64,000 bases of DNA from Chloroflexota bacterium (lineage in GTDB: Bacteria; Chloroflexota; Anaerolineae; Anaerolineales; VGOW01), in contig JACRBQ010000035.1 in the NCBI GenBank assembly GCA_016213135.1, forward strand, positions 1 to 64,000, written 5' to 3'. This document shows positions 5,481 to 18,017 of the stretch, one piece after another (position 1 is the stretch's first letter; each line of letters starts with the position of its first letter). The notes beneath the pieces are model-generated. The model searched no databases. It saw nothing but the letters and a program-made list of their open reading frames with translations, and was not told the DNA's origin. A program made the translations under genes and the position numbers.

Positions 5481-6137
5481 TCACGTCGCTACTTCGATGA
5501 ACAGGTTGGCCGCCATGTCTGCGCCCAGCACTTGCTCGCCCACAGGGGTTTTAAGCCGCACCGGGCCATCGAAGGGGGCGCGGTTGAGCAGCGTGATGGG
5601 CGTGCCGGGTGTGAGGCGAATTTCGGCGAGGTACCGGAGCTTGTCCGGGGTGTGTCGGCGAATGCGGCGCAGTATGCCCCGCGTGCCCACCGGAAAGGTG
5701 AGCAGGCTGGCTTCGCTCAACGCGGGCATGCGCCCGTCTTTGGTGGGGATGGGGTCGCCGTGCGGGCAGCGGGCGGGGTAGCCGGCGAGTTCGTCCATGC
5801 GATCTTCAAACTGATCGTTGATGGCTGCCTCGAGGTCGTGCGCGTGCGTGTGCACCTCGTCCCAGCCGAACTTCATGACGGTGACGAGGAAGGCCTCGAG
5901 CAAACGATGGCGGCGGATGGAGCGCAGGGCCTCGCGCTCGCCCTTGGGCGTGAGGCGCACGCCCTTGTAGGGCTGACGGCGCAGGTAGCCCTCGTGCGCC
6001 AGCAGCCGCATCATCTTCACCGCTGCCGGGGGCGACACCTCCAGCCGCGCGGCCACCGCGGTGGTGGTCACCGGTACCTCGGTGGACGATTGCAGGCGAT
6101 AGATTTCCGCAAGATAATCACGCCGGGCATGGCTCAT
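5481..6137 (-). CDS. DtxR/MntR-family metal-dependent regulator
   Basis: LEVSPPAAVKMMRLLAHEGYLRRQPYKGVRLTPKGE...EVHTHAHDLEAAINDQFEDRMDELAGYPARCPHGDPIP; start set at MSHARRDYL. Confidence 0.9.
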   Translation of the reverse strand: MSHARRDYLAEIYRLQSSTEVPVTTTAVAARLEVSPPAAVKMMRLLAHEGYLRRQPYKGVRLTPKGEREALRSIRRHRLLEAFLVTVMKFGWDEVHTHAHDLEAAINDQFEDRMDELAGYPARCPHGDPIPTKDGRMPALSEASLLTFPVGTRGILRRIRRHTPDKLRYLAEIRLTPGTPITLLNRAPFDGPVRLKTPVGEQVLGADMAANLFIEVAT

Positions 6138-6357
6138 GGCCTCGGTGGCTGAGTCGGCGCCCGTCAGTGAGTTGAGGGCGGCGGCCACAGGAGTCGGCTT
6201 CCCGTCCAATCCACACAGCCCTGGGGTTTTACTCTGGTTAATTTCCAAGTTGTCCTCGAGGAAGCCCAAGTTTAACGGGCAAGTCTTGATAATTCTGATA
6301 TTTGTCACTAATATTACCCTAACTATACAACCCTTTCAAGAACTGGAGAAAAGAGGC

Positions 6358-7200
6358 ATGTGGGTATCTTTGCTGTTGACGTTGCGTGAGGGGCTTGAGG
6401 CGGCACTGATTGTGGGCATTGTGTTCGGCTACTTGCGCAAGATTGACGGGTTGCAATACGCGCGCACGGCCTGGGCGGGTGTGTTGAGCGCGGTGCTGTT
6501 GAGCGCGGCGCTGGCCGTGGGTATCATGGCCGTGGGGGCGGAGCTTACGGGCCGCGCCGAGCAGTTGTTCGAGGGCGCGACGATGCTGTTGGCGGTGACC
6601 GTGCTGACGTGGATGATCTTTTGGATGCGGTCACAGGCGCAGCACTTGAAGGCCCGGCTGGAGGGCAAGGTACAAAAGGCAGTGGCTGCCGGAGTGGGCG
6701 GCGCGGCGTGGGGGCTTTTTGCGATGACGTTCATCGCCGTGTTTCGCGAGGGGGTGGAGACGGCGCTGTTGCTCGGGGCGGCGGCCTTCCAAACCAACGG
6801 GATGGACACGTTGATCGGCGCGGTGACCGGCCTGGCCATGGCGGCAGCCATCGGCTATGCGGTGTACGCCTCCACGGCGCGGCTCAACGCGCGGCTGTTT
6901 TTCGACGTGACCAGTTTGCTGCTGCTGGTGTTTGCCGCCGGGCTGTTCATGCACGGTGTGCATGAGTTTCAAGAGGCCGGGCTGCTGCCGGAGATCGTCG
7001 CCGACGTGTGGGACACGAGCGCGCTGATCAGCAAAGAGTCGGTGCCGGGGCAGTTCCTGCGAACGCTCGTCGGCTACACCCCCAAGCCCTCGCTGGTGGA
7101 AGTGCTGGCCTACGTGGGTTACTGGCTCGCCACACTGGGCGCGGTGCGCTGGTGGAACAGCCGGCTGGCGGCCCGCCACGAATTTATTCCTGCGGAGTGA
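6358..7200 (+). CDS. FTR1-family iron permease
   Basis: Two REGxE motifs (REGLEAAL, REGVETAL), multiple TM helices. Confidence 0.9.
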   Translation: MWVSLLLTLREGLEAALIVGIVFGYLRKIDGLQYARTAWAGVLSAVLLSAALAVGIMAVGAELTGRAEQLFEGATMLLAVTVLTWMIFWMRSQAQHLKARLEGKVQKAVAAGVGGAAWGLFAMTFIAVFREGVETALLLGAAAFQTNGMDTLIGAVTGLAMAAAIGYAVYASTARLNARLFFDVTSLLLLVFAAGLFMHGVHEFQEAGLLPEIVADVWDTSALISKESVPGQFLRTLVGYTPKPSLVEVLAYVGYWLATLGAVRWWNSRLAARHEFIPAE

Positions 7201-7204
7201 TTTC

Positions 7205-7762
7205 ATGGAACTCTTCGACGCCATCCACACCCGCCTGTCTATCGGCAAAGTAAAACCCGACCCCGTGCCGCGCGAACTGATTGAGAAGATGCTGAGCGCG
7301 GCGGTGCAGGCGCCGAACCATCACAAAGTGCGCCCGTGGCGATTTGTGGTGCTCACGGGCCAGGCCCGCGAACGGCTCGGCGACGTGTTCGCCGCCTCCT
7401 TCCGCAAGCGCCACCCGGAGGCCATGGAGGAGGCCGTGACGGTGGCGCGGGGCAAGGCGCTGCGCTCACCGGTGCTGATTGTGGTGGGCGTGGACAAGCC
7501 CGCCACCGAAAAAGTGGTCGAACTTGAGAACGTGTGCGCGGCGGCGGCAGCGGCGCAAAACATGCTGCTGGCGGCGCACGGGCTGGGGCTGGCAGCCAAA
7601 TGGAACACGGGCGATAATGCGACTGACGATTTGATCAAGGCGTTTTTCGGCCTCGCGCCGGATCAGCACTTGCTGGGATTTATCCACATTGGCTATCCGA
7701 TGGTCAGGCCGCAAGCTGTGGAGAGGCCTTCGTTTGAAGACCGGACGGTGTGGATGGAGTGA
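7205..7762 (+). CDS. Nitroreductase family protein
   Basis: IHTRLSIGKVKPDPVPRELIEKMLSAAVQAPNHHKVRPWRFVVL. Confidence 0.9.
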   Translation: MELFDAIHTRLSIGKVKPDPVPRELIEKMLSAAVQAPNHHKVRPWRFVVLTGQARERLGDVFAASFRKRHPEAMEEAVTVARGKALRSPVLIVVGVDKPATEKVVELENVCAAAAAAQNMLLAAHGLGLAAKWNTGDNATDDLIKAFFGLAPDQHLLGFIHIGYPMVRPQAVERPSFEDRTVWME

Positions 7763-7765
7763 GAC

Positions 7766-7985
7766 ACAAGGAAGGAGGTGATGCAACTGCAAAGCGCGCG
7801 CGCAATTAAAAAGTGAGAGGGCCATAGGCTTGCGCCTAGACCCTCCCAGTGGTGCGAGAGGCATGGCGGGAACCAAGAACCTCTCGACGGAAACAATCAT
7901 AACATATTCACAAAATCGTTGCCCTGAAACCCCTGAAGGTCTGTGAGACCACCGGGGTCTGGCAACGCAACTTAGGAGAAGAGCT
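7766..7985 (+). promoter_or_regulatory. Structured 5' leader of the iron ABC operon: short ORF MQLQSARAIKK (7781-7816) plus several hairpins
   Basis: AAGGAGG preceding atgcaactgcaaagcgcgcgcgcaattaaaaagtga; inverted repeats agggccataggc/gcctagaccct, cgagagg/cctctcg, CGTTGCC...GGCAACG. Confidence 0.45.
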
Positions 7986-7988
7986 AAC

Positions 7989-9080
7989 ATGTTTCGCAAA
8001 CTTCACCGGGCGGTGGTCGCATTTACGGTCGTCGCCTTGATCATTACTGCGTGCGGAACGGCGGCGACGCCGACCGCTCAACCGACGGCAGCGCTCGAAC
8101 CGGCGACGGTGGCGCCCACTCTCGCGCCGACCGAAGCGCCGGTGACCGGCGCGCTCGTCGTGTATTCCGGCCGCAAAGAGCCGCTCATTCAGCCGGTGCT
8201 GGATGCGTTCAAAGCGAAGTACCCGGACGTGGAGATTGTGCTGAAGAGCGGGAGCAACAGTGAGCTGGCTAATGCTCTGATCGAAGAAAAGGCCAACCCG
8301 CAAGGCGACGTGTTCATCACAACAGAAGTGTTCACCGTGCAGGCCCTTTACGCCGAAGGTGTGTTCGAGAATTACGTTTCGCCCAACGCGGCGGATATCC
8401 CGGCGCAGTATCGGCAAGTAGACGGCGGCTGGACAGGCGTGACGGCGCGGGCGCGGGTGATCATGTACAACACGACTCTGGTCAAACCGGAAGACGCGCC
8501 GCAGTCCATCTTCGATCTCACGGATCCAAAGTGGCAAGGGCAGGTGGCCGCCGCTGGGAGCGCGAATGGCTCGATGCAAGCGCAGGTCGCAGTACTGCGC
8601 GAACTGGTGGGCGAGGGGGCGACCGAAGACTGGCTGGCCGGTTTGGTCGCTAACGAGGTGACGTTCTTCGACAGCCACACGGACGTGCGGAAAGCCGTGG
8701 GCGCGGGCGAGTTCAAGATCGGGTTGGTCAATCACTATTACTACTATCTGCAACAGGCCGAAGGCAGTCCGGTAAGTGTCGTTTTCCCGGATCAGGGCGA
8801 CGGGCAGATCGGGGTGATTGTCAACGCGACGGCGGCGGGCATTGTCAAGGGCGGGCGCAATCCGGAGGCGGCAAAGGCGCTGGTGGACTTTCTGCTTTCC
8901 GGGGAGGGCCAAAAGCTGTTCGCCGAGTTGAATTACGAATATCCGCTGGTTCCGGGCGTTGCGCTGCACCCCGACGTGCAGTCGCTCGACGGCTTGCGCT
9001 TGGCGGATGTAAATCTTGCCGAGGCGACGGTTGATCTGGATGCGACGTTTGATTTGATGGAGAAGGTTGGACTGCCGTAG
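7989..9080 (+). CDS. Fe(3+) ABC transporter substrate-binding lipoprotein (FbpA/FutA-like)
   Basis: Lipobox LIITACG; LVVYSGRKEPLIQPVLDAFKAKYPDVEIVLKSGSNSELANALIEE. Confidence 0.9.
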   Translation: MFRKLHRAVVAFTVVALIITACGTAATPTAQPTAALEPATVAPTLAPTEAPVTGALVVYSGRKEPLIQPVLDAFKAKYPDVEIVLKSGSNSELANALIEEKANPQGDVFITTEVFTVQALYAEGVFENYVSPNAADIPAQYRQVDGGWTGVTARARVIMYNTTLVKPEDAPQSIFDLTDPKWQGQVAAAGSANGSMQAQVAVLRELVGEGATEDWLAGLVANEVTFFDSHTDVRKAVGAGEFKIGLVNHYYYYLQQAEGSPVSVVFPDQGDGQIGVIVNATAAGIVKGGRNPEAAKALVDFLLSGEGQKLFAELNYEYPLVPGVALHPDVQSLDGLRLADVNLAEATVDLDATFDLMEKVGLP

Positions 9081-9086
9081 TTTGTG

Positions 9087-9150
9087 ACAAGGTGACATGG
9101 TGACAAGGTGGCAGTGAGTCACCTTGTCACCCCTTCACCGTGTCACCTGT
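9087..9150. repeat. 8-bp-period inverted array (ACAAGGTG then TCACCTTG-like units)
   Basis: acaaggtg acatggtg acaaggtg gcagtgag tcaccttg tcacccct tcaccgtg tcacctgt. Confidence 0.9.
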
Positions 9151-9158
9151 CGTTCCCC

Positions 9159-10820
9159 ATGGACTCTGCCGCGCAACTCTCCGCGCCTTCTCGCTGGCGC
9201 TTTTATTCCAACATCGGCAAACGACCGATGCCGTTGCCGCTATTGCTGGCCGCTTTAGCGGTTGCGGCTTTCATTGCCACACCGCTCGTTTATATTGCCT
9301 ATCGCGGCGCGGCGGGCGGCGCGGACGTGTGGCTGAGGTTGGCGCAGACTCGCTTGGCGGGGTTGATGTTCAACACGCTGTCGCTCGCCGTTGCAGTGAC
9401 GGGCGGCACGCTGGTCATTGGCGTGACTCTGGCCTGGCTGGTCGAGCGAACCGATCTGCCGGGGCGCACGCTGTGGCGGTGGCTGTTGGCAATGCCGCTT
9501 TCGATTCCGGCGTTCATCGGCGCGATGGTGCACGTGGCGCTGTGGCGGCCGCGCGGCGGCATGGTGCCGCAGCTGCTTTCGGGCTGGCTTGGCTATCCGG
9601 TGGATACGCCGAGTCCGTTTGGTTTTATCGGCGCGGCGGCGATGCTGACGCTGTTCATGTATCCGTATGTTTTTTTGCTCAGCGCGGCGGCATTTCGGAC
9701 ACTGCACGCTTCGCTGGAAGAGGCGGCGCGGTCGCTGGGGCGCGGGCCGTGGGGCGCGTTGTGGCACGTGATCTTGCCGGCGCTCAAGCCGGGCCTCGGC
9801 GCAGGCGCATTGCTCGTCGCGTTGGATATTCTGGCCGAATACGGCACGGTTGTGCTGCTGCGCTATCAAACGTTCAGCTCGGCGATCTTTTTGCAGTTGA
9901 GCGGGCGGTATGATCGCTCGGCGGCGGCGGTCCTGAGCGCGGTGCTGATCGTGCTGGGTGGCGCGCTGCTGTGGGGCGAGGTCAAATTTCAGGGGCAGGC
10001 GCGTTTTTATCAAATGACGGGCAGTTGGCGGCCCGCGCCGCCGACTCCGCTGGGGCGCTGGACTCCGCTGGCGCTGGCCCTGGTGTTGCTCGTCGTCGGC
10101 ATGAGCCTGGTGGTGCCTGTCGTCGTGCTTGTGGGGTGGACACTTCAGGGCTGGCTCGATACGTCGTACGCGGCGTCGGTGTGGCGGTTCTCGGCGCAGG
10201 GCGTATGGGGTTATGCCTTCAATAGCGTGTGGAGCGCGGGGCTGGCCGCCGTTCTTGCCGTAGCGCTTTCTCTGCCGGTTGCTTATCTTTCGGCGCGTTA
10301 TCCACGCCGCACATCGCAAGCCCTGGCGCGGCTGTGCCAGGTGGGGTATGCCCTGCCGGGTGTGGTGATTGCGCTGAGCTTGATCCTGCTCGTCAATCGG
10401 GCACTGCCATTCTTGTATACGACTCCGCTCATCGTCGTGCTGGCGTACGTGCTGCGCCACATGCCGCAGGCGGTGCGGAGCAGTGAGGCGGCGCTGGCGC
10501 AAGTCGCGCCAACGATGGAGGAGGCGGCGCGCAGTTTGGGCCGCCCGCCTCTGCGCGCGTTCGTCAATGTCACTTTGCCGCTCATCCTGCCGGGGCTGTT
10601 CGCGGGGGGCGCGTTGGTGTTTCTGACTTCGCTCAAGGAATTGCCCGCCACGCTGTTGTTGCGTCCGGCAGGCTTCGACACCCTTTCGGTGCGGGTATGG
10701 ATCACGGCCAGCGAAGGCGTGTATACTCAGGCCGCGCCGGCGGCATTATTGCTCATTTTGTGCGCGGCGGCGCCGCTGTATTTTCTGTTGAAGCGCGAAA
10801 TGAGAAAACGTGATGCGTGA
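9159..10820 (+). CDS. Iron ABC transporter permease (FbpB-like, duplicated permease halves)
   Basis: Two BPD-transporter cores EEAARSLGRGPWGALWHVILPALKPGL and EEAARSLGRPPLRAFVNVTLPLILPGL. Confidence 0.92.
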   Translation: MDSAAQLSAPSRWRFYSNIGKRPMPLPLLLAALAVAAFIATPLVYIAYRGAAGGADVWLRLAQTRLAGLMFNTLSLAVAVTGGTLVIGVTLAWLVERTDLPGRTLWRWLLAMPLSIPAFIGAMVHVALWRPRGGMVPQLLSGWLGYPVDTPSPFGFIGAAAMLTLFMYPYVFLLSAAAFRTLHASLEEAARSLGRGPWGALWHVILPALKPGLGAGALLVALDILAEYGTVVLLRYQTFSSAIFLQLSGRYDRSAAAVLSAVLIVLGGALLWGEVKFQGQARFYQMTGSWRPAPPTPLGRWTPLALALVLLVVGMSLVVPVVVLVGWTLQGWLDTSYAASVWRFSAQGVWGYAFNSVWSAGLAAVLAVALSLPVAYLSARYPRRTSQALARLCQVGYALPGVVIALSLILLVNRALPFLYTTPLIVVLAYVLRHMPQAVRSSEAALAQVAPTMEEAARSLGRPPLRAFVNVTLPLILPGLFAGGALVFLTSLKELPATLLLRPAGFDTLSVRVWITASEGVYTQAAPAALLLILCAAAPLYFLLKREMRKRDA

Positions 10821-10857
10821 TGCGGGACAACCTTTCACGGATCACGCATCACGGATT
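10809..10857. repeat. 7-bp-period inverted array (CGTGATG / ACGGATC-ACGCATC)
   Basis: cgtgatg cgtgatg cgggaca acctttc acggatc acgcatc acggatt. Confidence 0.85.
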
Positions 10858-10870
10858 AGGCTGTTGGTTA

Positions 10871-11917
10871 ATGAATGCTTTAGAATTAGAAGGCGTCACC
10901 AAACAATACGCGCCAGGCACACCCCCCGCCGTCGCCGATGTGTCGCTGTCGGTGGCGAAAGGTGAAATTCTTGCGCTCATCGGCCCCAGCGGGTGCGGCA
11001 AAACGTCTACACTGCGGTTGATCGCCGGATTTGAGCGGCCGGATTCGGGAACGGTGGTGATCGGTGGACGGGTTGCGGCCAATGGCCGGGCCTGGATTCC
11101 GCCGGAGCGGCGCGGCGTCGGAATGGTCTTTCAAGATTACGCGCTGTTCCCGCATCTCACGGTTGCCGAAAACACCGGCTTTGGTCTTGATGAACTGAGC
11201 CGGGACAAGCGCCAGCCGGAAGTGGATCACTTGTTGCAGTTGGTGGGGCTGGAAAAATTCGGCCGGCGGTATCCGCACGAGTTGTCGGGCGGGGAGCGGC
11301 AGAGGGTGGCTCTGGCGCGCGCGCTCGCGCCCAAGCCGGTGGTGGTTCTGCTCGATGAGCCTTTCAGTAATTTGGACACCGACCGCCGCGCGGAGATGCG
11401 CGAGCAGGTGCGCGCAATTCTAACAATGTTAAGCGCGACGGCGATCTTCGTCACGCACGATCACGAAGAGGCGCTGTTCATGGGCGACCGTGTGGCCGTG
11501 CTGAATAACGGACGGCTGGAACAAATCGGCGCGCCGGAAAGTATTTTTCATTCGCCGGCTTCGCATTTCGTGGCCGAGTTCATGGGCCACACCGATTTTC
11601 TGCCGGGCCGCGTCGTCTCCAATGGAATCGAAATGGAGATCGGTTTGTTGCCTCAGCGCGTCGATCTGCCGGAAGGCACAGCGGTGGAGATCGCCTTCCG
11701 TGCCGACGACGTGTCGCTCACGCCCGATCGCACCGCGTCGGCGCGGGTGCTGGCCCGTCACTTCAAAGGCGCGGTTAATCTCTATCGTGTGCGTTTGCCG
11801 TCCGGCCAATTAATTCACAGCCTGCAACCGCACACGCTGCAGATGGCACCTGGAACAGCGGTGCGGGTGTGGGCCGCGCCGGGGCATGCGCTGGCGTGTT
11901 ATCCGGTTGATCAATGA
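10871..11917 (+). CDS. Iron ABC transporter ATP-binding protein (FbpC-like)
   Basis: GPSGCGKTSTLRLIAGFERPDSG, LSGGERQRVALARALAPKP, LLDEPFSNLD. Confidence 0.93.
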   Translation: MNALELEGVTKQYAPGTPPAVADVSLSVAKGEILALIGPSGCGKTSTLRLIAGFERPDSGTVVIGGRVAANGRAWIPPERRGVGMVFQDYALFPHLTVAENTGFGLDELSRDKRQPEVDHLLQLVGLEKFGRRYPHELSGGERQRVALARALAPKPVVVLLDEPFSNLDTDRRAEMREQVRAILTMLSATAIFVTHDHEEALFMGDRVAVLNNGRLEQIGAPESIFHSPASHFVAEFMGHTDFLPGRVVSNGIEMEIGLLPQRVDLPEGTAVEIAFRADDVSLTPDRTASARVLARHFKGAVNLYRVRLPSGQLIHSLQPHTLQMAPGTAVRVWAAPGHALACYPVDQ

Positions 11918-12933
11918 AACTCGACGTCGCCATCTCCCCTTTCTCTCTCTCCGAAGTCTCCGCGCTCGCGCGCCGCATCGAGGCGCTGGGCGCGGATGGA
12001 CTGTTCACCACCGAAACCCAACACGATCCATTTCTGCCGCTGGCCCTTGCCGCCGGGCACACGACGCGGCTTGAACTGGGCACGGCAGTGGCCATTGCCT
12101 TTGCCCGCAGCCCGATGACCGTGGCCCACACGGCGTGGGATTTGGCCGCGCACTCCGGCGGGCGGTTTCTGCTCGGCCTCGGCACGCAGGTCAAACCGCA
12201 CATCGAGCGGCGTTTTGGCATGGCGTGGCCCGAGTCGCCCGTGGGCCAACTGCGCGAGTTCATCGCCGCCGTGCGGGCGGTGTGGCAGTCGTGGCAAACG
12301 GGCGAGCGGCTCAACTTCCGGGGCGAGCGTTACAAGCTCACGCTCATGACGCCGTTTTTCAATCCCGGCCCCATCGAGCATCCGCGCATCCCCATTTACA
12401 TTGCCGGGGTCAACGCCCCGCTCATCAAACTGGCCGGTGAAACCGCCGACGGATTTCACGTTCACCCCTACCACACCCGGCGCTATCTGGCCGAAGTGGT
12501 TGCGCCGAACATCGAGGCCGGGGCAACCAAAGCCGGGCGCGCCCGCGCCGATGTGACCCTGGCTGGGACGGCCTTTGTGGCCGTGGGCGACGGCGAGGCG
12601 GCCCGCGCCCCCATGCGCGAGGTGATGCGCTCGCAAATTGCTTTTTACGCCTCCACGCCCACCTATCGCCCGGTAATGGCGCTGCACGGTTGGGAAGCGC
12701 AGGCCGGGCAGCTTTCGGCGCTGGCGGCCAAAGGACAGTGGGGCGAGATGCCCGCTGTGCTTACCGACGACATGCTGGCCGAATTTTTGGTCGAAGGCTC
12801 GTGGGCCGACCTCGGCGGCAAACTGCGCGCCCGATACGACGGTTTGCTGGATCGGGTGGCGCTGTATCTGCCGTTTTCGCCGGGTGAAGATGATGAGAGG
12901 TGGGGGAGGGTGGCGAGGGCGATTCGAGGGTGA
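11914..12933 (+). CDS. LLM-class (F420-dependent type) oxidoreductase
   Basis: GADGLFTTETQHDPF..., RFLLGLGTQVKPHIERRFG, IPIYIAGVNAPLIKLAGETADGFHVHP. Confidence 0.88.
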   Translation: MKLDVAISPFSLSEVSALARRIEALGADGLFTTETQHDPFLPLALAAGHTTRLELGTAVAIAFARSPMTVAHTAWDLAAHSGGRFLLGLGTQVKPHIERRFGMAWPESPVGQLREFIAAVRAVWQSWQTGERLNFRGERYKLTLMTPFFNPGPIEHPRIPIYIAGVNAPLIKLAGETADGFHVHPYHTRRYLAEVVAPNIEAGATKAGRARADVTLAGTAFVAVGDGEAARAPMREVMRSQIAFYASTPTYRPVMALHGWEAQAGQLSALAAKGQWGEMPAVLTDDMLAEFLVEGSWADLGGKLRARYDGLLDRVALYLPFSPGEDDERWGRVARAIRG

Positions 12934-13135
12934 CTTGCTCAACGGATCGCCTTTCAGCGGATTGAAAACGAAAAAGCGGATGGGAGCGCAGTCGCCATCC
13001 CCTTTCGCGGAGCGGCTTAATCATCCGTTGGAAGTTTATTCTCGACTTTGCGTTCTTGTGCCTTCTTCCATATAATCCTGCACACGGGAGCGGCTTGCCG
13101 CCGCTGTCTGATGAGTGTGGTTAGCAGGAGGACGT

Positions 13136-16018
13136 ATGAGCAACGATCCACAACAGCCGGGAACGGAGATTTTGAAACGGATCGTCGAGAAGCTCAAGGT
13201 ACAAGAATTCCTATTTGCGCTCGGACTTGTCGTTGCCTTGGCAGTCTTCGGCGGATTTATCCTGCCCGATTACATCCCCTTGATCTATTTGGCGACAGGC
13301 GTGGCGTTGATCTTGTATACCGTCACGGTGGTGACGACGGCCTACCGCAAAGTGCGCGACGCGAAAGAGGGCGCGACGCAAGCCCGGCGCGAGCCGTCAA
13401 CCGTCATCGTCACCGTGTTGCCGCCTGCGCCGTCTGTTGAGCCGGTACGCCCGGCGCTGTCCGAATTCGAGCAGTTGACGATGTATCTGGATCGGGTCAG
13501 AAATACCAACAACATCTTGCGGCTGGTCGGGATCAGCGCCGAGGCCAGTGACCCGCAGAAATCGAGCGCGGAAGCGCGCACCCCGACCTCTTTATCGGAC
13601 GTATTCATCTCACTGCGAATTGATCGTTATCGCGGCGAACCCGAAGAGCAGGCGCAGGGCAAACCGGATCGTGAACACCAGCAAGAGATGGCGCGGTTAT
13701 TGGAGCGGGAACGCAAGCAATTGACGGCCATCGAAGCGTTGAGCGATCCCAAAGTCTTGCGCTGTGTGATGTTGGGGCAGCCGGGATCGGGCAAATCGTC
13801 GGTGCTGCGTTACGCGGCGTATCGCCTGGCCGAGTCGTTCCTTTCCCCCGAACGACTGAAAGAGACGATGCCCGAATGGCAGGCCGGAGAAATGCTGTCC
13901 GTGCTGGCGCCGTTGGCGCTTTTGGCCGAGTCGCTGCCGGCGCGCGCCCAGGGCGGGAAACTGGACGATCACGTGGTTGCGTTTGTCCAGGCGCAAGTGG
14001 AATGGTGCGCCGAAATGAACGGCTTTGCCCGGCGCGTGTGGCGCGAGGCGCGCGAGCGCGGCGTGCTGTTTTTGTTCGACGGCCTGGACGAAGTGGCGCC
14101 GGAAAAACGCGCCGTCGTCAAAGAGGCGATAGACGAGTTTCTTTCGGCGCGGGGCAAATGTCGCGCCGTCGTCACCTGCCGCACGTACAGTTACGGCGAC
14201 GACAAGTGGCGGCTGGAAGGCTGGCCGGCTTACAACATCGAGCCGCTTTCGCGCGGCGAACAAGAATCGTTCATACAGAAGTGGTACCAAACGCTGATCC
14301 AAAACGACGCCCCCTCGCGCCCGCTGTACGAGAAGAAAGCACAGTCGCTCGAGGGCGCGATTTTCTCCGGCGACGCCCGGCAACTGCATCAAATCTCGGG
14401 CACCCCCCTGCTGTTGACGCTTATCGCCATCGTGCACACGCATCAAGAAGAACTGCCCCGCTCGCGCATTTTGATTTACCGGGAGTGCGTCAACCTTCTG
14501 CTTCTGCGCTGGCAAAAGCGGCGGCAGGTCGGCGACGCGCTGAAGTCCATCGCCGAACGGATGAAAGATGCCGCGCCCACGGCGAGCGGGCTGGCCGACA
14601 AAGTGCTGGAGGGGCTGGCCGAGGTGGCGTATCAAGCCCGCGACCGGGACGCGATGAAGCATGGCGACTCCATGTTGATAGACCTGTATCTCCTGCGGCA
14701 AGTGATGATGCGCTATCTGCCCGAAGCCGCCCTGTCCGTCTTTGAAGATTATTGCTTGAATGCCAATGGCTTGCTCCTGGCCATTGGCTCGCGCCGCCTG
14801 CGGGATCGCCCGGCCCACGAAGAGCCGGTGATGTGCTTCGCCTTCCCGCATCTCTCTTTTGAAGAATACCTAGCCTCGCAATACATCGCCACGCTGGACA
14901 ACCCGGAAGAGGCGCTGGCACAGCGCAACGCGGCCAGCGACCGCTGGTTTTACGCCGGGCTTTTCCTGGGCGAGCAGTACGCGCTCGTCACGCCCAAACG
15001 CGCCAGGAATATGCTGGAGATGTTTCACCAACTACTCAAGGACGGCGCAGCTTGGCGCAACGTTTGGCTGGCGGGCGTGTTGTGGCCGCTGTTCTGCGCG
15101 GAATTTCCCGAGAGGCGCGGCGACCCTGCCGAGTTGGAGGGGCGCGTCCGTGAGCGCCTTACAACTTTGTGCGCGACGGGGCAACTGTTGCCGCACGAAC
15201 GCGCCGACGCCGGGCGCGTGCTGAGCGAGATGGGCGACCCCCGTGACCTCGAAGAACTCGTCGCCATTCCCAAAGGCCCGTTCATTATGGGCAGCAAGGA
15301 AGAAGGCCCCTGGCTCGACGAGCGCCCTCAACACGAAGTCGTCATTCCCGGCGATTACAGGATTGGAAAATACCCGGTGACGGTGAAATTGTGGAAGCGG
15401 TTTGTGGATGAGGCGAAATACGATCCGCGCGTTCCGGATTCGCTCAAAGGCTACGACAACCATCCCGCGCACGACGTTTCCTGGCACGACGCTTGCAACT
15501 TCTGCGAATGGCTGACGGACGTATGGCGAAAGGAAGGGAAGATCGGCGAGAATGAAGAGGCGCGCTTGCCCACGGAAGCGGAGTGGGAGCGCGCGGCGCG
15601 CGACACAGACGGGCGCGAATGGCCTTGGGGCAACACATTTGAGGAGAATCGCGCGAACACATCTGAAAGCGGAATCAGGCGCACCACCGCTGTTGGCATA
15701 TTTCCTGCCAAGGAAGTACCGACAAAATGTTTGGATATGATTGGCAATGTGTGGGAGTGGACTATCAGTTTGGGGGCCGAGTATCAGGATAAGAGTTACG
15801 CGAAGCGCGTGCGAGAGTTCAAATATCCGTATGATCCAGGAGATGAGCGAGAAGATATGCGGGCCGCTGATAACTTTTCCCGCGTGGTGCGCGGCGGCTC
15901 GGGCGGCAGTCCCGGGTTCGCGCGCTGTGCCTGCCGCGGCGGCTACCTCCCGTTCTATCGGGGCGGCAACGTCGGTTTTCGGGTGGTGGTCTCCCCTATC
16001 TCGCTTTTGAATCCCTGA
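13136..16018 (+). CDS. DGR target: two-TM NACHT NTPase with C-terminal formylglycine-generating-enzyme/SUMF1-like (CLec fold) domain
   Basis: Walker A GQPGSGKSS, NACHT Walker B VLFLFDGLDEVAPEK; FGE-like IPKGPFIMGSKEEGPWLDERPQHEV...LPTEAEWERAARDTDGREWPWGN...DMIGNVWEWT...VVRGGS...GFRVV. Confidence 0.93.
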   Translation: MSNDPQQPGTEILKRIVEKLKVQEFLFALGLVVALAVFGGFILPDYIPLIYLATGVALILYTVTVVTTAYRKVRDAKEGATQARREPSTVIVTVLPPAPSVEPVRPALSEFEQLTMYLDRVRNTNNILRLVGISAEASDPQKSSAEARTPTSLSDVFISLRIDRYRGEPEEQAQGKPDREHQQEMARLLERERKQLTAIEALSDPKVLRCVMLGQPGSGKSSVLRYAAYRLAESFLSPERLKETMPEWQAGEMLSVLAPLALLAESLPARAQGGKLDDHVVAFVQAQVEWCAEMNGFARRVWREARERGVLFLFDGLDEVAPEKRAVVKEAIDEFLSARGKCRAVVTCRTYSYGDDKWRLEGWPAYNIEPLSRGEQESFIQKWYQTLIQNDAPSRPLYEKKAQSLEGAIFSGDARQLHQISGTPLLLTLIAIVHTHQEELPRSRILIYRECVNLLLLRWQKRRQVGDALKSIAERMKDAAPTASGLADKVLEGLAEVAYQARDRDAMKHGDSMLIDLYLLRQVMMRYLPEAALSVFEDYCLNANGLLLAIGSRRLRDRPAHEEPVMCFAFPHLSFEEYLASQYIATLDNPEEALAQRNAASDRWFYAGLFLGEQYALVTPKRARNMLEMFHQLLKDGAAWRNVWLAGVLWPLFCAEFPERRGDPAELEGRVRERLTTLCATGQLLPHERADAGRVLSEMGDPRDLEELVAIPKGPFIMGSKEEGPWLDERPQHEVVIPGDYRIGKYPVTVKLWKRFVDEAKYDPRVPDSLKGYDNHPAHDVSWHDACNFCEWLTDVWRKEGKIGENEEARLPTEAEWERAARDTDGREWPWGNTFEENRANTSESGIRRTTAVGIFPAKEVPTKCLDMIGNVWEWTISLGAEYQDKSYAKRVREFKYPYDPGDEREDMRAADNFSRVVRGGSGGSPGFARCACRGGYLPFYRGGNVGFRVVVSPISLLNP
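15880..16004 (+). repeat. DGR variable repeat (VR), 3' end of the NACHT-FGE gene
   Basis: Aligns to 17589-17716 with 24 substitutions, all at template adenines, and one 3-nt gap. Confidence 0.97.
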
Positions 16019-16041
16019 TCCCTGAAAACTCTGATCCATGT

Positions 16042-16082
16042 GGGGGTGGGGGTCTGGGGGCGGGGGTTTCCCCCGCCCCCAG
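16042..16082 (+). promoter_or_regulatory. G-quadruplex motif overlapping a perfect 13-bp hairpin downstream of the VR
   Basis: GGGGGTGGGGGTCTGGGGGCGGGGG (16042-16066); CTGGGGGCGGGGG-TTT-CCCCCGCCCCCAG (16054-16082). Confidence 0.85.
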
Positions 16083-16109
16083 CCGGGGCAAGAAGCGCGG
16101 CGGCGCACC

Positions 16110-17198
16110 ATGAAACCTTACACGAATCTCTACCCCAAAATATGCGCCTGGGAAAACTTGGAGCTGGCCTATTACAAGGCGCGGCGGGGCAAGCGCGGCC
16201 TGGCGCCGGCGGCAAGTTTCGAGCGCAAGTTGGAAGACAATTTGGTTGCTTTGCAAGACGCACTGCTCTCGCAAACCTACGCGCCGGGAAAATATCACAG
16301 TTTTTACATCCACGATCCCAAGAAGCGTTTGATCTCCGCCGCGCCGTTCCGGGATCGAGTGGTTCATCACGCACTGTGCAACATCATCGAGCCGATCTTC
16401 GAGCGCAGTTTCATTGACGACTCTTACGCTAACCGCGTGGGCCAAGGCACGCACCGCGCGCTGGATCGCTGTCAGCAATTCTCGCGCCGCTATCGCTACG
16501 CTTTGCAACTCGATGTCGTGCAGTATTTTCCGGGCATTGACCACGCAATTCTGCGCGAGACGTTGGCGCGAAGGATTGGCGATGAAGCGGCTCTCAGACT
16601 GTGTGAGGTAATTATCGAGAGCGGGCGCGGCGTGCTGGCGGAAGAATACAACATGGTCTATTTTGACGGCGACGACCCTTCGACGGGCTCAGGGCAGGGT
16701 CTGCTGGCCGTCAACCGCCCGCGCGGCTTGCCTATCGGCAACCTGACCTCGCAGTTTTGGGCAAACGTCTATCTCAACTCGTTTGATCACTTTGTCAAGC
16801 GCGAACTCAAATGCAAAGCGTATCTGCGTTACGTGGACGATTTCATCCTGTTTGCCGACGACAAGCAAACATTATGGGCATGGCGCAAGGAGACTGTGGA
16901 TTACCTTGCCCGCTTGCGTTTGACGCTTCACATTGAGCGCGTTCACCCGCGCCCCGTAACTGAAGGCGTGATGTTTCTCGGCTTCAACGTCTTTCCGACT
17001 CATCGCCTGCTCAAGGCGAAGAAGGCGATCTCGTTCCGAAGAAAGCTCAAGGCAATGCGCCGCCAATTGGCAGAAGGCGAGATCGGGTTAGGGATGCAGC
17101 ACGCCTCGGTCAGAGGCTGGGTCAACCACGTACGCTATGGGGATACGTGGGGCCTGCGCCGCGCAATTCTGGGCGCGAATCCGATTACGTGGAATTGA
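16110..17198 (+). CDS. Diversity-generating-retroelement reverse transcriptase
   Basis: RGLPIGNLTSQFWANVYLNSFDHFVKRELKCKAYLRYVDDFILFADDK: SQ motif typical of DGR RTs plus YVDD catalytic motif. Confidence 0.96.
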   Translation: MKPYTNLYPKICAWENLELAYYKARRGKRGLAPAASFERKLEDNLVALQDALLSQTYAPGKYHSFYIHDPKKRLISAAPFRDRVVHHALCNIIEPIFERSFIDDSYANRVGQGTHRALDRCQQFSRRYRYALQLDVVQYFPGIDHAILRETLARRIGDEAALRLCEVIIESGRGVLAEEYNMVYFDGDDPSTGSGQGLLAVNRPRGLPIGNLTSQFWANVYLNSFDHFVKRELKCKAYLRYVDDFILFADDKQTLWAWRKETVDYLARLRLTLHIERVHPRPVTEGVMFLGFNVFPTHRLLKAKKAISFRRKLKAMRRQLAEGEIGLGMQHASVRGWVNHVRYGDTWGLRRAILGANPITWN

Positions 17199-17201
17199 CC
17201 C

Positions 17202-17546
17202 TTGCCAAACGAATCTCCCCTTTTCTCCCGCACGTTTGATTTTCTCTCTTGGCTCTTGCAGCGCTCACAAAGTTTTCCGCGCCCGCACCGTTTTGGAGCA
17301 ACGCAGCGCCTGCAGAATGCGGCCATGGATTTCCAGGAGTTGATCGTCGAGGCTGAATCGCTGCGCGGCGCGGAAAGGCTGGAGCGATTGCGGCGCGCGG
17401 ACGCCGAACTGGGGAAAGTGCGATTGTATTTACGCCTGTGCCGCCAGTGGGATTGGTTGACGGCCGGGCAATATGAGCATGCCTCGCGCATGATCGCGGA
17501 AATGGGGCGATTGCTGGGAGGATGGCTCAAAGCAACCGGCACGTAA
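17202..17546 (+). CDS. avd: Avd-like four-helix-bundle accessory protein of the DGR
   Basis: FDFLSWLLQRSQSFPRPHRFGATQRLQNAAMDFQELIVEAESLRG...ADAELGKVRLYLRLCRQWDWLTAGQYEHASRMIAEMGRLLGGW. Confidence 0.88.
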   Translation: MPNESPLFSRTFDFLSWLLQRSQSFPRPHRFGATQRLQNAAMDFQELIVEAESLRGAERLERLRRADAELGKVRLYLRLCRQWDWLTAGQYEHASRMIAEMGRLLGGWLKATGT

Positions 17547-17588
17547 GGCCGCAATTTGCCTTGTTGTGTAGGGCTGCGCCGATGGAGG

Positions 17589-17716
17589 CCGCGTGGTGCG
17601 CGGCGGCTCGTTCAACAACAATCACAGGAACGCGCGCTGTGCCTGCCGCAACGACAACCACCCGAACAATCGAAACGACAACATCGGTTTTCGGGTGGTG
17701 GTCTCCCATAACTCGC
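17589..17716 (+). repeat. DGR template repeat (TR), adenine-rich AAY codons
   Basis: ccgcgtggtgcgcggcggctcgttcaacaacaatcacaggaacgcgcgctgtgcctgccgcaacgacaaccacccgaacaatcgaaacgacaacatcggttttcgggtggtggtctcccataactcgc. Confidence 0.97.
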
Positions 17717-17830
17717 AGAGGCCGCCGGAAATGCAGTTTGGCTTTTGGGCTGAACTGCCGAGGCGCAAATACGAGATAGCGCGGCGCACGCCCTGCCCGC
17801 GGCGGCCTCCGCCCGGGCGAATACAGAATT

Positions 17831-17876
17831 GACTCGCGCTTTGTTCTTCGGTGAACTCAGCGCGAGTCTTTTCTTT
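17831..17876 (+). terminator. Rho-independent terminator closing the DGR cassette
   Basis: GACTCGCGCT...AGCGCGAGTC followed by ttttcttt. Confidence 0.85.
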
Positions 17877-18017
17877 CGACTCGGGGTTGTTGTGAAGTCG
17901 CTGCCCACGGATTACGGGAACCGCTTCGCGTTGAGCGGATGAGGCGCGACGGAATCCGTTCAATCCGTTCCGAATAATCCGTTGACAGCTTTTCCTGTGG
18001 TAAAATCTCAACAGCCG

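Follow-up and report, generated by a model that had tools for sequence, protein, structure and literature searches.

A locus in the window (the whole stretch of DNA analysed, 64,000 nucleotides of contig JACRBQ010000035.1 from a Chloroflexota bacterium) is very probably a complete cellular diversity-generating retroelement (DGR), and this confidence covers both its anatomy and its mechanism. As read from the sequence, a target gene that ends in the variable repeat (VR) is followed by the reverse transcriptase gene (brt), the accessory gene avd, the template repeat (TR) and a spacer. The cassette belongs to a kind that has already been described, the STAND/CLec arrangement reported by Doré et al. 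in 2024 (PMC10907252). Its features, all on the forward strand, are the following.

13136–16018, + strand: DGR target gene, 960 aa (Pfam FGE 7.5e-45 and NACHT 4.9e-07; AlphaFold model; AGGAGG before the ATG at 13136)
15880–16004, + strand: VR, 3′ end of the target gene (adenine-only alignment to the TR with one 3-nt gap)
15972–15996, + strand: IMH-like constant 3′ block with the TR-A/VR-C marker (15996) as its last position (lineage TR/VR pairs)
16041–16082, + strand: G-run stretch and 13-bp perfect hairpin, IMH-hairpin- or cruciform-like, also a G4 motif (stem enrichment)
16110–17198, + strand: DGR reverse transcriptase (RT), 362 aa, with LPIGNLTSQ and YVDD (RVT_1, PHROG, BPP-1 bRT, tree)
17202–17546, + strand: Avd accessory protein, 114 aa, TTG start (bAvd PF22296, PHROG 3206, PDB)
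17589–17716, + strand: TR (alignment to the VR)
17724–17827, + strand: conserved RNA with a three-helix structure (model R1), directly adjoining the TR on its 3′ side (covariation and model match)
17831–17873 (about), + strand: terminator-like 10-bp stem, then TTTTCTTT (predicted fold)

The target, RT, Avd, hairpin and terminator-like stem listed in the initial annotation are all present where it had placed them. That description overlooked the loss of a TTC codon from the VR, the separate nature of the two 3′-terminal substitutions and the structured RNA that follows the TR. The terminator-like stem is missing from a simple terminator scan because its loop is long. An open reading frame at 17522–17779, overlapping the TR, was discarded as a spurious frame.

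Adenine-directed variation between TR and VR

Alignment of the TR (128 nt) with the VR (125 nt) revealed 24 substitutions, namely 14 A>G, 8 A>T and 2 A>C. All of them occur at TR adenines, of which there are 30, and none was found at any other base. The probability that 24 of 24 substitutions would fall on A by chance is 1.8e-20 (hypergeometric, if every base could have been substituted). The alignment bears out the limits of both repeats and the count of 24 changes at 30 adenines that had been proposed from codon pairs, and no substitution at another base appeared that would speak against them. The adenine-only pattern of that codon alignment stands as well; it left unmentioned a 3-nt gap in the VR, and the last two substitutions that it counted are probably not products of mutagenesis. 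The gap corresponds to the TR codon TTC (17611–17613), which has no VR counterpart. Since the TR and the VR of a sister locus on contig C17 both retain TTC, the codon was lost from this VR. The TR contains 19 adenine-bearing codons, none of which can be converted to a stop.

The two 3′-terminal substitutions were interpreted with the help of the related loci. Of the 56 lineage pairs, 52 have A in the TR and C in the VR after a constant block of 14 nt or more, in sequence contexts that include YCCAC and YCCAT; C is the outcome at 131 of the 843 other mutated adenines of the lineage pairs. Because random mutagenesis does not yield C in 52 of 56 cases, this fixed difference is, from sequence comparison, most likely an IMH*/IMH-like marker. 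In the window, the marker is the A>C change at TR 17708/VR 15996, and an A>T change lies beyond it at 17711/15999. Being located at or beyond the fixed marker, these two substitutions are therefore better read as an IMH*/IMH-like difference than as mutagenesis. Once they are set aside, the diversified adenines probably number 22 of 27. The diversified positions span VR 15902–15971, which encode residues 923–946 of the target.

The base that replaces a mutated adenine was scored in 61 TR/VR pairs (lineage loci L047–L138 and those of this genome, the fixed A/C marker set aside). The outcome was G in 45%, T in 39% and C in 16% of the cases, a clear base bias. Indels were observed in the VRs of 11 of these 61 pairs and of 15 of 128 phage DGRs (Fisher p 0.26). 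A lineage-specific diversification of VR length was rejected, since the phage rate is similar and slippage indels in AAC repeats have already been reported (PMC12875486). As the lineage relatives are mostly MAGs, single VR alleles may represent an assembly consensus. In one relative (L089, VR 5717–5853), an insertion of 19 nt resembles a repeated copy of the TR with adenine changes of its own, in the manner of a template jump.

Downstream of the VR, the hairpin at 16054–16082 is formed by a perfect stem of 13 bp closed by a TTT loop, with four G-runs before and within it. Stems with 8 or more base pairs, searched for in the 120 nt that follow the VR, were detected at 33 of 69 lineage VRs and in 16 of 313 control stretches, and the segment 16041–16082 is not a common repeat within the genome. 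The G4 motif was found at 8 of the 69 VRs and in 0 of the 313 controls; it was rejected as a conserved element, being restricted to those 8 and mostly nested in the hairpin arms. The hairpin of phage IMH has a GC stem of 7–10 bp and a GRNA tetraloop and is located 4–34 bp past the VR (Guo et al. 2011, PMC3240598). The window hairpin, with its 13-bp stem and three-nucleotide TTT loop about 50 nt past the VR end, falls outside this phage type: the class of position is alike, but the form is different.

The RT, Avd and the structured RNA downstream of the TR

The RT matches RVT_1 (5e-16) and PHROG 1423 (2.2e-117), and its best relative in the PDB is the bRT of BPP-1 (8ub7, E 2.7e-51). The LPxGxxxSQ and YVDD motifs expected from the initial annotation were found as LPIGNLTSQ, which is of the [ILV]GxxxSQ form in place of QGxxxSP, and YVDD; the two group II intron-type RTs of the genome carry QGG..SP. 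In a tree of 79 RTs, the window RT and the phage DGR RTs split from these two group II-type RTs on a 100% branch, and the window RT falls within one cellular group (support 93) together with RTs of Chloroflexota, Accumulibacter and Chloroploca. The tree and the bRT match agree in placing the enzyme among DGR RTs, the point on which the earlier reading of the cassette could have failed. At least 572 RT relatives were found in GTDB genomes, and those of the 80 kept were mostly from Chloroflexota. A viral origin of the RT was rejected, the search of IMG/VR having returned no relatives. The Avd protein matches bAvd (PF22296, 3.9e-17), PHROG 3206 ‘Avd protein of DGR’ (1e-23) and, in the PDB, Bbp7 (4dwl, 1.9e-6) and 8ub7_B (1.2e-5).

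The RT also carries an in-frame insert of eight residues, PSTGSGQG (16677–16700), which recurs in the RT of the C17 locus (about 9328–9347). It derives from a dispersed REP-like repeat, of which seven near-copies were counted in the genome and 0 with the reversed control pattern. The insert is confined to these two RTs and is absent from the other aligned relatives.

Directly 3′ of the TR, the R1 model of about 104 positions contains a GCC/GGC helix as its outer part, a hairpin inside and a second helix that ends at GGGCAAAUA. The seed alignment was built from TR flanks trimmed by regular expression. In 21 sequences, 53 two-sided changes were counted versus 18.2 in shuffled alignments and 12–26 in slid controls; in a larger set of 84 sequences, which were fitted to the model and hence lean to it, the count was 259 versus 88. 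Because of this fitting, independent support for R1 is taken from the positions of its matches and from its absence from phage loci. The match in the window scores 70.3 bits (E 1.6e-15), the window sequence being among those that built the model. R1 is present in 76 of 94 lineage loci (E 0.01 or better); among 149 genomes of the class, 24 carry it, and within its own genome it was found at the three TRs alone, plus one match at E 0.7. It starts 4–116 nt past the TR end in 55 of 56 matches with a called TR, and in 35 of 36 among the sequences outside model building. None of 79 phage DGR loci, BPP-1 included, contains R1; these loci, BPP-1-like and crAss-like, were picked as relatives of two phage RTs. 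No Rfam family matched at the R1 locus of the window. Two gene orders were seen among the lineage loci L047–L138, VR-RT-Avd-TR as in the window and VR-TR-RT, and R1 lies 3′ of the TR in both. Descriptions of a TR-adjacent RNA family or of the A/C marker were not found in the searchable literature, a scope outside which most subscription journals lie.

The spacer of BPP-1 folds, recruits bRT-Avd and primes cDNA synthesis (PMC12875486). Since its position 3′ of the TR parallels that of the BPP-1 spacer, R1 is a putative RT/Avd-binding and priming spacer and probably the lineage counterpart of that RNA; the two are alike in position but do not form one covariance-model family. We consider it rather likely that R1 and the fixed TR-A/VR-C marker constitute an apparatus for priming and directionality that is particular to the lineage, and that a search for the RNA would by itself suffice to find the TRs of cellular NACHT-type DGRs.

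The diversified target and its sister loci

The target protein is composed of predicted N-terminal membrane helices, a NACHT NTPase, a helical region and a C-terminal FGE-sulfatase/C-type-lectin domain. Its AlphaFold model (pLDDT 80) matches the FGE/ToxD fold and the folds of NLRC4, NLRP3 and NOD2. The FGE match and the ToxD/FGE structure matches indicate a C-type lectin fold at the VR-bearing C-terminus, and residues 923–946 fall in the last part of this fold. Among the lineage targets, FGE was detected in 32 of 32 and NACHT in 28 of 32, with TIR, SEFIR or EAD8 in a few. Taken together, the domain composition suggests that the target is most likely an NLR-like sensor with a diversified recognition surface.

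On the basis of this architecture we lean towards a role as a defence sensor, a function that Doré et al. have proposed for NACHT targets and call untested (PMC10907252). A service in kin or surface recognition or in signal transduction appears rather unlikely. It would fit the predicted membrane helices and the N-terminus, in which no effector domain was recognised, and signalling has been proposed for cyanobacterial relatives (cited in PMC10907252); but proteins with proven anti-phage action likewise combine STAND/NACHT with a sensor at the C-terminus (PMC10907252), and the TIR, SEFIR or EAD8 domains of some related targets also argue for defence. PADLOC models gave generic RT matches alone and 0 matches to the target, and no conflict genes were found among the direct neighbours examined, which comprise ABC transport, luciferase-like and MGDG-synthase-like genes and a tRNA-Ser pair.

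The genome (3.8 Mb, 147 contigs), searched in pieces, contains two further TR/VR loci, on contigs C17 and C99. The C17 locus (5637–10494) is a second complete cassette with the order target, VR, hairpin, RT, Avd, TR and R1 RNA, and its RT is 74–75% identical to that of the window. A deletion of 5 nt in its VR puts the FGE C-terminus out of frame; an adenine-only placement removes five bases around ACCGC. The C99 locus (8700–12444) comprises a third target, VR and TR with the R1 RNA. Here a TR AAG became TAG in the VR, a nonsense codon; a stop-capable TR codon is unusual. As the contig stops 257 nt past the TR and many relatives have the order VR-TR-RT, the RT of C99 probably lies off the contig; the reading of C99 as an RT-less satellite DGR is unsupported given this contig end. 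Each of the three TRs fits its own VR alone without non-A mismatches. Action in trans among the loci is unsupported, since cross pairs require 4–12 non-A changes.

It is quite improbable that recent inactivation has turned the cassette into a relic, one that no longer retrohomes and whose VR is a frozen product. The codon missing from the window VR, the C17 frameshift, the C99 TAG and an RT insert that stems from a genomic repeat and is absent from other relatives would agree with such a loss; yet the three TR/VR pairs are free of non-A substitutions, RT, Avd and the RNA beside the TR have stayed intact, and the insert is shared by both paralogous RTs, whose VRs have diversified independently. 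We prefer to regard the cassette as possibly active at present. That the A-biased repeats arose by chance or by ordinary gene-family duplication has a negligible probability and is already refuted: FGE domains occur widely and the TR too scores as a fragment of one, but all 24 changes fall on A, at the chance level given above, and RT, Avd and TR-adjacent RNA occur together in dozens of relatives.

A genome of the same genus (L295) has the same flanks, with the luciferase-like gene, the two tRNA-Ser genes and the MGDG-synthase-like gene, and no DGR between them. The same flanks enclose different genes, and the DGR site is therefore a variable site beside tRNA genes. In L295, the place that corresponds to window 12940–18000 is occupied by PAS/HD-GYP-like and transporter-like genes, as judged by eye.

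Proposed mechanism and relation to known DGRs

By analogy with BPP-1, a transcript would carry the TR with the folded spacer RNA at its 3′ side, and this RNA would hold the RT-Avd complex and serve as the primer from which the cDNA starts at the TR 3′ end. Misincorporation by the RT would occur at template adenines, and the mutated cDNA would then replace the VR. Three elements would give this transfer its direction, namely the constant 3′ block, the A/C marker and the hairpin past the VR. The outcome would be reshuffled ligand-binding loops (residues 923–946) in the FGE/CLec domain of the NACHT protein, a diversified sensor probably used in anti-phage defence. The first and the last genetic states of this scheme are read from the sequence; we infer the steps between them from the BPP-1 analogy.

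The nearest known systems are the clade 5D DGRs of Doré et al. 2024, such as DGR 3 and DGR 6 of Thiohalocapsa PB-PSB1 (PMC10907252). They share with the window locus a central STAND/NACHT, a single C-terminal FGE/CLec domain with the VR, the presence of several loci per genome with degenerate ones beside complete ones, and an RT clade with Chloroploca and Accumulibacter, the label ‘5D’ being given here by architecture and tree neighbours and not by the published RT tree. In contrast to these systems, the window host is of Chloroflexota type, an assignment based in this analysis on the relatives of the RT, the cassette has one target with predicted membrane helices, no protease or EAD gene was found among the neighbours examined, and the TR, placed 3′ of avd, is accompanied by a structured RNA and a terminator-like stem of its own. 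With the DGR of Bordetella phage BPP-1 the locus shares homologous RT and Avd, adenine-only mutagenesis, a hairpin past the VR and an RNA 3′ of the TR. The order of BPP-1 is mtd-VR, avd, TR, spacer, brt, whereas that of the window is target-VR, brt, avd, TR, spacer.

To our knowledge, there is hardly any biochemical study of cellular DGRs. R1 and the A/C marker offer mutable parts with which cDNA priming and template preservation could be probed in these elements, and the R1 covariance model provides a way to locate cellular DGR templates where neither RT nor VR has been called. The cassette itself would stand as a Chloroflexota-type example for the view that NLR-like sensors are hypermutated by bacteria.
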